Of a DNA stretch of 64,000 nt, positions 25,007 through 34,252 are shown piece by piece; within the stretch, counting starts at the first letter, position 1, and each line of letters opens with the position of its first letter. Source of the DNA: Pyrinomonadaceae bacterium (GTDB lineage Bacteria; Acidobacteriota; Blastocatellia; Pyrinomonadales; Pyrinomonadaceae); assembly GCA_025054715.1 (NCBI GenBank), contig JANWYH010000003.1:122781-186780 (forward strand). The letters run 5' to 3'. Both the position numbers and the translations under genes were made by a program. The notes under the pieces are model-generated. The model saw nothing but the letters and a program-made list of their open reading frames with translations, had not been told where the DNA came from and did not search any database.

Positions 25007-25387
25007 TTACTTCTTCTTGGAAAACTGCTGGTAAGCCACTCTAAAAAGCTCTGAAAGTGCCTTTGCTGCCTCTGGAGTTAAATTTTTATCCGCTCTTAAA
25101 TGAGCCTCGACTATCTCAGGAACAGGCTCTTGAAGATAGTATACCACAAGCCCTTCGTCATTACTACTTGCTTTTTGCATTACTCTGTCAACCGGAATAT
25201 TCAACCAGCTTGCCAGCTTGGCTATATTATCAGCATCCGGTTTACCTGTTCCTTTCTCTATTCTTGAAAGAGTCGAAGCAGATATACCTATTTGAGAAGC
25301 TAAATCCCTCAAGCTCAAGCCTTGTCTTTCACGTTGCTCCTTAACCCTCTTTCCCAGCTCTTTTAAATCTACGAAACCTTCTACCAT
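25007..25387 (-). CDS. XRE-family repressor, DdrO-like size and context
   Basis: The 126-aa protein has a Cro/CI-type HTH (about residues 8-63, with LRDLASQIGISASTLSRIEKG) and a short helical C-terminal domain (about 75-122, EAHLRADKNLTPEAAKALSE). Regulators of this size and tail often pair with ImmA/IrrE-type metalloproteases, and Deinococcus DdrO (about 129 aa) is one of them. No ImmA/IrrE gene is in the window. It is transcribed away from the SWIM-Rad52 gene across a 157-bp gap full of palindromes, so it probably represses that gene and possibly itself. AGGAG sits just before the ATG. The HTH family is certain; the DdrO analogy is inference. Confidence 0.88.
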   Translation of the reverse strand: MVEGFVDLKELGKRVKEQRERQGLSLRDLASQIGISASTLSRIEKGTGKPDADNIAKLASWLNIPVDRVMQKASSNDEGLVVYYLQEPVPEIVEAHLRADKNLTPEAAKALSELFRVAYQQFSKKK

Positions 25388-25472
25388 AACTCCTAACCCT
25401 TCTATTCAGATATTTTTTTCATCTTAGAAAAGTACCACAAAAAAATTTCACGAGCAAGACTTCGTTTCACAC

Positions 25473-25501
25473 TTGACACAAAACATCACAAGTGATATCT
25501 T
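25473..25501 (+). promoter_or_regulatory. Promoter of the SWIM-Rad52 gene
   Basis: A consensus -35 TTGACA (25473-25478), a 17-bp spacer and -10 TATCTT (25496-25501). The start site would fall near 25508, inside the palindrome at 25501-25518, and leave a roughly 37-nt leader containing GGAAGGAG. Confidence 0.7.
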
Positions 25502-25518
25502 GTTTCATAGATGAAACA
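25485..25518. promoter_or_regulatory. Palindromic operator cluster in the XRE/SWIM-Rad52 gap
   Basis: Three inverted repeats overlap the promoter. ATCAC-AA-GTGAT (25485-25496) lies between the -35 and -10. ACAAG-N6-CTTGT (25488-25503) spans the -10. TGTTTCAT-AG-ATGAAACA (25501-25518) is a perfect 8-bp repeat over the start site. They are ideally placed for repression by the divergent XRE protein. Confidence 0.65.
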
Positions 25519-25544
25519 GAAATGAAGCGGAAGGAGTTTTCAAA

Positions 25545-26456
25545 ATGAAGGAAGAAAAGAAAGAGACACGAGCCAAAGAAATAGTGTCAAAGGGTTTGAT
25601 ATTACAGGAAGGCAGAATGTTTAAAATCAGTGATCCCTCGCCACAAAGAAAGAAGAAGTTTTACGAGGTAACAAAAAACGAAGAAGGAGTTTTGAAGTGC
25701 AACTGCTTCGAGGCTGAGGTTTTAACTAACGAAAGTTTTGAGTGTGAGCATATTATTGCTGTCAAGTACCTTGAAGAACTTGCTACAAACCAAGAACAGA
25801 ACCAAGTTTCATCAGAAAATATCACTGAGATAGACTTTCCTAAAAAACTTGAGCTTTTAAGACAAGAAGTTAGCCCAAATCTCATAAAACAAAAGGAAGG
25901 ATGGAAAGACAGAGAGGGACAAGCTCACTACGTTGATTACGTAGAATGGCATACAGTAGCCGATATTCTTGATGAGAAAGCTCCAAACTGGTCACATTCA
26001 ATACGCGATATAAAAAAGATAGGAAATTTTGTTGTTGTAACCGTAGCTATAACGATCGATAGCGTCACTCGTGAAGGAATTGGAACGGGAATAGCGGATT
26101 CTGAAGTTGGAATCAAAAAAGCAGAGCATGATGCTCTTAAACGTGCAGCAGCAAAGTTTGGTATTGCTCGCCACCTTTACAAAAAGGAGGCAGACGCGTC
26201 AGATTCGCCTATAAAACTTTCCGTAAACCCCTTAGCCCGTTCCGTCGGCGATTTAATAACCTCGAAACAGCTTAGCATGATTTATGCTCTAGGCCGAGAG
26301 ATAGGCGTTGACGTTGAGCAGGAATGTCAGTCAGTTTTTGGCTGCAGTCTTGACGAAATTTCAAAGCGAACCGCTTCTACCTTTATAAATTATCTGCAGG
26401 AGTTTAAGAAGAAGTTATCTGAACCCTCTGTAGAAAACCTACGGAAAGCAGTTTGA
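25545..26456 (+). CDS. SWIM zinc-finger / Rad52-like single-strand annealing protein
   Basis: The 303-aa protein has three parts. Residues 40-75 hold a SWIM zinc finger (C52-x-C54-x12-C67-x-H69). Residues about 100-213 match the Rad52/22 annealing fold, with AEHDALKRAAAKFGIARHLY as the clearest signature. Residues about 236-290 form a helical tail (SKQLSMIYALGREIGVDVEQE) of a kind often attached to Rad52- and ERF-like proteins. Expected role: annealing of complementary ssDNA in recombinational repair. GGAAGGAG precedes the ATG. The gene stands alone, opposite an XRE regulator. Bacterial Rad52-like proteins include DdrA of Deinococcus, so a DNA-damage role is plausible; a phage-derived recombinase is the alternative. 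Confidence 0.85.
   Translation: MKEEKKETRAKEIVSKGLILQEGRMFKISDPSPQRKKKFYEVTKNEEGVLKCNCFEAEVLTNESFECEHIIAVKYLEELATNQEQNQVSSENITEIDFPKKLELLRQEVSPNLIKQKEGWKDREGQAHYVDYVEWHTVADILDEKAPNWSHSIRDIKKIGNFVVVTVAITIDSVTREGIGTGIADSEVGIKKAEHDALKRAAAKFGIARHLYKKEADASDSPIKLSVNPLARSVGDLITSKQLSMIYALGREIGVDVEQECQSVFGCSLDEISKRTASTFINYLQEFKKKLSEPSVENLRKAV

Positions 26457-32492: not shown

Positions 32493-34252
<1,760 letters not shown>

Follow-up and report, generated by a model that had tools for sequence, protein, structure and literature searches.

A divergent XRE regulator and SWIM-Rad52 gene pair as the probable core of a DdrO/IrrE-like DNA-damage response in Blastocatellia (Acidobacteriota)

In a 64,000-nucleotide stretch of Pyrinomonadaceae DNA (the window), a gene for a small XRE-family regulator stands divergent from a gene for a protein with a SWIM zinc finger and a Rad52-like core. 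A preliminary description of the window proposed that the two might form a repair module of the DdrO/DdrA type, with the XRE protein as the dedicated repressor of the fusion. SOS-independent damage regulons built on an XRE regulator and an IrrE-fold protein are documented mainly in Deinococcus-Thermus (PMC8072749). Does the pair belong to such a response in another phylum, and how far does the regulator's control extend? We conclude, with a probability of roughly 70%, that the two genes form the centre of a DNA-damage response of the DdrO/IrrE kind, which Blastocatellia (Acidobacteriota) possess alongside LexA.

The gene pair and the Rad52-type protein

An ORF check of the window returned both reading frames, divergent across a gap of 157 bp, with the strands and lengths given before (Table 1). 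Elsewhere in the window, positions 32493-33065 encode a cpYpsA-type SLOG protein (PF12694, E 9.9e-57), the frame of which overlaps the adjoining gene, serS by eye.

Table 1. Annotated features of the XRE/SWIM-Rad52 locus, in window coordinates
Feature	Position	Strand	Evidence
XRE-family regulator, 126 aa	25007..25387	-	PF01381 HTH_3, E 8.7e-17
SWIM zinc-finger / Rad52-type single-strand annealing protein, 303 aa	25545..26456	+	PF04098; AlphaFold model; RAD52 fold
SWIM CxCx12CxH ligands, residues 52-69	25698..25751	+	Ligand alignment; Pfam SWIM in relatives
Rad52 core, residues 93-214	25821..26186	+	VIA-align to 8bjm, 1kn0, 5xrz
C-terminal helical domain, residues 234-292	26244..26420	+	8tg7 alignment
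Candidate operator O1, perfect palindrome TGTTTCATAGATGAAACA	25501..25518	.	Common to relatives
Degenerate candidate operator O2 CGTTTCACACTTGACACA	25463..25480	.	Overlaps -35 box, 38 bp before O1
Predicted sigma-70-like promoter of SWIM-Rad52 gene, TTGACA-17-TATCTT	25473..25501	+	10/12 matches; shuffle mean 0.4

The SWIM-Rad52 gene was found in most genomes of the family, and wherever both genes are present in a relative's locus they are divergent (27/27). A survey of named genomes gave 165 relatives; among the best 80 of these 165 loci, which by their titles are Acidobacteriota (many of them Pyrinomonadaceae) save one titled only 'bacterium', a divergent XRE gene is present in 72, six of the remaining eight run off the contig, and L227 and L283 are the two real exceptions. 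The survey proposed in the preliminary description thus speaks for a conserved XRE neighbour. When 297 genomes were sampled evenly across the phylum, all 23 matches to the XRE family (E ≤ 1e-30) fell in the same class. The HTH profile of the XRE protein matches the DdrO structures 6rnz, 6rmq and 6jq1 with E values of 6e-6 to 2e-5, several other XRE proteins being at least as good, and the match to DdrO is confined to the HTH. It is followed at the C-terminus by a short conserved segment, IVEAHLRADxxLxPExAxALxELFRVAYxQF.

The place opposite the XRE gene is occupied differently in some loci. L299, L300, L301, L302 and L303 have no Rad52 gene; there the neighbour of the XRE gene encodes a 550-600-aa secreted protein, which by eye resembles a C-terminal processing peptidase. 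Three family genomes (L051, L052 and L058) carry, beside XRE and in the Rad52 position, a divergent protein that has lost most of the conserved Rad52 residues. Opposite the XRE-IrrE pair of family f6 stands a divergent gene (L296:3129-3782, L297:3021-3719) that by eye is that of an ECF-type sigma factor, not Rad52.

The 303-aa protein matches the Pfam family Rad52_Rad22 (PF04098) over residues 105-219 with 33.2 bits (cut-off 20.3), as do 22 of 22 aligned SWIM-Rad52 sequences. A comparison of folds was needed because profile searches against the sequences of solved structures gave no match for SWIM-Rad52 and nothing relevant for the IrrE-like partner described below. Structure prediction, a check named in the preliminary description, bore out the Rad52-like core: the AlphaFold2 model (alignment of 22 sequences, mean pLDDT 86.5) has the fold of RAD52, followed by a tail of helices, and is matched to human RAD52 with a Foldseek E of 1.3e-7 and a VIA Z of 12.7 (rmsd 2.5 Å, 117 residues). 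It also matches Sak of phage 80alpha (Z 11.4) and yeast Mgm101. The tail of the model aligns with 8tg7, a structure of the C-terminal domain of Red-beta together with the C-terminal peptide of SSB (Z 7.6, rmsd 2.1 Å, 59 residues); this likeness to an SSB-tail-binding domain is suggestive only, as the Z is typical of common helical arrangements.

The SWIM ligands C52, C54, C67 and H69 sit exactly where they had been placed, and they are invariant in all 20 aligned sequences having the region. Of the 22 aligned sequences, 19 are matched by the Pfam SWIM model, the window protein itself being unmatched at E ≤ 1, and the predicted structure has the beta-beta-alpha context of a SWIM finger (strands 39-44 and 50-52, then helix 68-86). 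Forty of the 80 surveyed loci, some of them cut by a contig end, show no SWIM part, and several of these encode short Rad52 forms of about 245 aa. Judged from this comparison of sequences, the finger is dispensable, and it is XRE together with Rad52 that forms the conserved core. No paper joining a SWIM zinc finger and a bacterial Rad52 was found among the open-access papers searched. The SWIM-Rad52 annealing proteins make up a family of candidate recombination tools.

The operator and the genes that it marks

The XRE/Rad52 intergenic regions, the only regions from which the motif was derived, have in common the palindrome TGTTKCAYnnRTGMAACA. In the window the perfect palindrome O1 abuts the -10 of the predicted promoter; the promoter positions are conserved in 25 loci, and the 38-bp spacing of O2 and O1 is preserved in nearly all aligned loci. 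Searched for exactly in 60 genomes, the motif gave 50 sites in 31 genomes, while the reversed control gave none in any of the 60. With one mismatch allowed, 89 sites were found in 8 genomes against 13 in the control, so about one in seven is expected by chance.

Of the exact sites, 29 lie outside the XRE/Rad52 promoter, and 8 of these 29 are upstream of recA (binomial 2e-22, a rough figure that assumes 3,500 promoters per genome and ignores the kinship of the genomes). About 8 of the 29 precede other genes or no evident gene. When recA genes were located independently, 32 of 32 family genomes from beyond the genus of the window had an operator with at most two mismatches, 89-167 bp ahead of the recA start; 450-bp shuffles give such matches at a frequency of ≤ 0.005. 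Five of these 32 genomes, which lack a Rad52-gene match, retain both XRE and the recA operator. The operator is absent at recA in the window's own genus, and in families f2 and f6 recA is without it despite the presence of XRE. At recA a degenerate half-site covers the inferred -35 box, and the palindrome sits just before that box.

Further predicted targets, each in single genomes, are ruvA, ruvB, uvrB, ribonucleotide reductase, a small second Rad52, a Sak4-like ATPase, topoisomerase IB and DinB-family genes; the operator-bearing ruvB has a divergent XPB-type helicase. The operator is also linked to a radical-SAM protein, spore-photoproduct-lyase-like by eye, and to a family of 180-aa proteins with no assigned function. 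A family of about 160-180 aa (L135:4068-4607, L137, L124, L115, L046:8309-8851, L304:1500-1976), with no Pfam or PHROGs match, is repeatedly found behind the operator, either divergent from topoisomerase IB or adjoining SWIM-Rad52/XRE, and occurs in another family of the class as well; it is a candidate member of the damage regulon. At the Sak4-like promoters (L306:2016/2055, L309:2032/2071, L317:840/879) two operators stand 39 bp apart, near the 38 bp at Rad52.

The genome of the window, searched by pattern and in stretches, looks different from those of its relatives. O1 is its sole match with fewer than two mismatches, the examined two-mismatch sites other than O1 lie within genes or before non-repair genes, and with three mismatches the 54 sites found are at the noise level of the control (45). 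The regulon of this genome is apparently reduced to the SWIM-Rad52 promoter. The proposed search for operator palindromes upstream of repair genes finds them at recA, ruv and uvr in relatives, and in the genome of the window at the SWIM-Rad52 promoter only, and the term 'dedicated' does not suit a repressor that in relatives appears to govern a regulon. At the level of the family, that regulon is well supported by comparative genomics.

An IrrE-fold partner and the proposed circuit

The observation that the window holds no ImmA/IrrE gene stands: a genome-wide search gave a single PF06114 match, outside it, at C5:20815-21105 (51.3 bits). This protein of 197 aa is encoded by a gene that overlaps the upstream gene, mltG-like by eye. 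Proteins of about 200-250 aa in relatives share 48-65% identity with it. Most of them are encoded near the XRE gene and on the same strand, in about 20 relatives as an orthologue adjacent to it; in family f6 the XRE and partner genes form a tandem with no Rad52 gene alongside. The model of the partner (pLDDT 89) matches IrrE/PprI, CapP and a Mycobacterium transcriptional regulator, with 3dti best in Foldseek, a Z of 10.6 for 8sln, and CapP as the best structural match (Z 12.5). Residues 9-195 of the model align to PprI 23-181, that is, to the peptidase and HTH part only, and the protein ends about where the GAF-like domain of PprI starts.

In 20 of 20 partner sequences (e.g. L141:3758-4351) the motif reads EExxH, not HExxH, the first His being replaced by Glu, whereas three paralogues in the class keep HEYSH or HEYGH. 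E107, E108, H111 and downstream glutamates are invariant, which suggests a retained metal site, and EExxH may not be a peptidase site. An IrrE-fold gene is present in the genome, though one encoding neither the canonical HExxH nor a GAF domain.

The pair, the operator, the target set and the partner are established at the level of sequence. From them we infer a circuit in which an XRE dimer would bind the palindrome and thereby control, by repression, the divergent promoter, from which the annealing protein of Rad52 type is expressed, and across most of the family also recA and other repair genes. The IrrE-fold partner, its gene beside XRE in many relatives and unlinked in the genome of the window, would sense damage (probably as ssDNA) and inactivate XRE, possibly by cleavage, by analogy with Deinococcus, in which ssDNA activates PprI to cleave DdrO (PMC10904395). 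Damage would then raise the levels of Rad52-type annealing proteins and, in relatives, of RecA and others. In the window's genus, where recA carries no operator, the regulon would have shrunk to the SWIM-Rad52 promoter. The idea of a DdrO/DdrA-like repair module was, on this evidence, largely right at the family level, and it overreached for a genome in which apparently one promoter is left.

Other readings and comparison with known systems

The operator set itself raises the question of whether the lineage uses the palindrome as its LexA (SOS) box, XRE being merely one SOS-controlled gene. The genome of the window encodes a LexA that has an S24 peptidase domain, LexA matches occur in most relatives, and recA, ruvAB and uvrB belong to the classical SOS set. 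LexA usually autoregulates, however, and the region upstream of lexA lacks the motif (at least three mismatches) in 22 of 22 family genomes; a common palindrome sought upstream of lexA was likewise not found. Moreover, the XRE-locus operator is present in two genomes that show no LexA match (G037, G048), and class genomes with LexA and without XRE (such as G038, G042 and G044) have no motif at recA. We regard this reading as quite improbable, and give very little credence to a domesticated prophage recombination module, a phage-type repressor and SSAP kept by chance. The resemblance of core and tail to phage Sak and a PHROGs Erf-like match of the SWIM-Rad52 protein would suit a phage origin, but 2.9 million viral contigs held no close viral relative, 50,697 phage records gave one weak partial match only, and the regulon is made of chromosomal repair genes. 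Nor did relatives show the phage-module context that the preliminary description had named as pointing to a prophage recombinase: in several of them the pair keeps its synteny to argS and to a gene of the DAHP-synthase family. A toxin-antitoxin or CBASS reading was also rejected, as the PADLOC matches are regulators only (capH, capP and other HTH models).

The placement of the operators, against the -10 at Rad52 and, at recA, ahead of the inferred -35, bears on the mode of regulation. Because of this position at recA, activation would also fit there, and XRE could be a dual regulator that represses Rad52 and activates recA, with the partner as a non-proteolytic ligand or redox sensor. The uniform EExxH of the partner, set against the HExxH of its same-class paralogues, and the presence among its best structural matches of a transcriptional regulator from Mycobacterium that shares the fold agree with such a role, which we consider possible though rather unlikely: the half-site over the inferred -35 of recA is compatible with repression, and the invariant residues of the partner suggest that the metal site was kept. 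Doubtful, too, is a bolder form of the DdrO/IrrE-like reading, in which Blastocatellia built the response independently, an EExxH IrrE-fold protein controls XRE without ordinary proteolysis, and the prime local target, SWIM-Rad52, might connect ssDNA coated by SSB to the Rad52 ring.

If the DdrO/IrrE-like response is real, XRE/IrrE-type circuits control recA more widely, with a different operator, and a counterpart sits in a widespread, little-studied soil phylum. The operator is defined for testing in Pyrinomonas methylaliphatogenes K22, which is among the named genomes. The parts are of known kinds and their arrangement is apparently undescribed; no paper in the open-access literature searched combines DdrO, IrrE and Acidobacteri*, which is weak evidence of novelty, as most subscription papers lay outside the search.

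Several known systems share parts with this one. With the annealing proteins Sak, Rad52 and Red-beta the window protein has the Rad52 core in common, together with a Red-beta/Sak-like helical tail, and it adds an N-terminal SWIM finger and linker. CapH/CapP of CBASS are likewise an XRE and an IrrE-fold protein, and the PADLOC capH model matches XRE residues 10-113 (HTH and beyond) while capP matches the partner weakly, but here the motif stands at genes for repair rather than at a CBASS operon. ImmR/ImmA of ICEBs1-type elements resemble the tandem of XRE and M78-fold genes seen in relatives; here, however, no integrative element was seen, and the pair is chromosomal and conserved across the family. 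DdiA, a co-regulator in the damage response of Myxococcus xanthus (PMC12288472), is similar in being an XRE protein and in acting in a response independent of LexA, a likeness drawn at the XRE fold only. IrrE/DdrO-related pairs are widespread, with close homologues named only in Deinococcus-Thermus (PMC8072749).

The closest comparison is with DdrO/IrrE (PprI) of Deinococcus, where an XRE repressor of about 129 aa coexists with LexA and its palindrome sits upstream of recA, ruvB, uvrB and a Rad52-like gene (PMC8072749, PMC8533742). The Blastocatellia system has an XRE protein of DdrO size, an IrrE-fold partner, coexistence with LexA, and an operator at the same four kinds of gene, albeit in relatives, the genome of the window having it at Rad52 only. 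It differs in that the C-terminal part of XRE is unmatched by DdrO at the sequence level, and in its operator, which is not the RDRM of D. radiodurans, TATGYYHTTARCRKA (PMC8533742). PprI has a HEISH motif and a C-terminal GAF-like domain (PMC10904395), whereas the partner has EExxH and ends before such a domain. Finally, the system belongs to another phylum, and in the window's genome its regulon is nearly lost.
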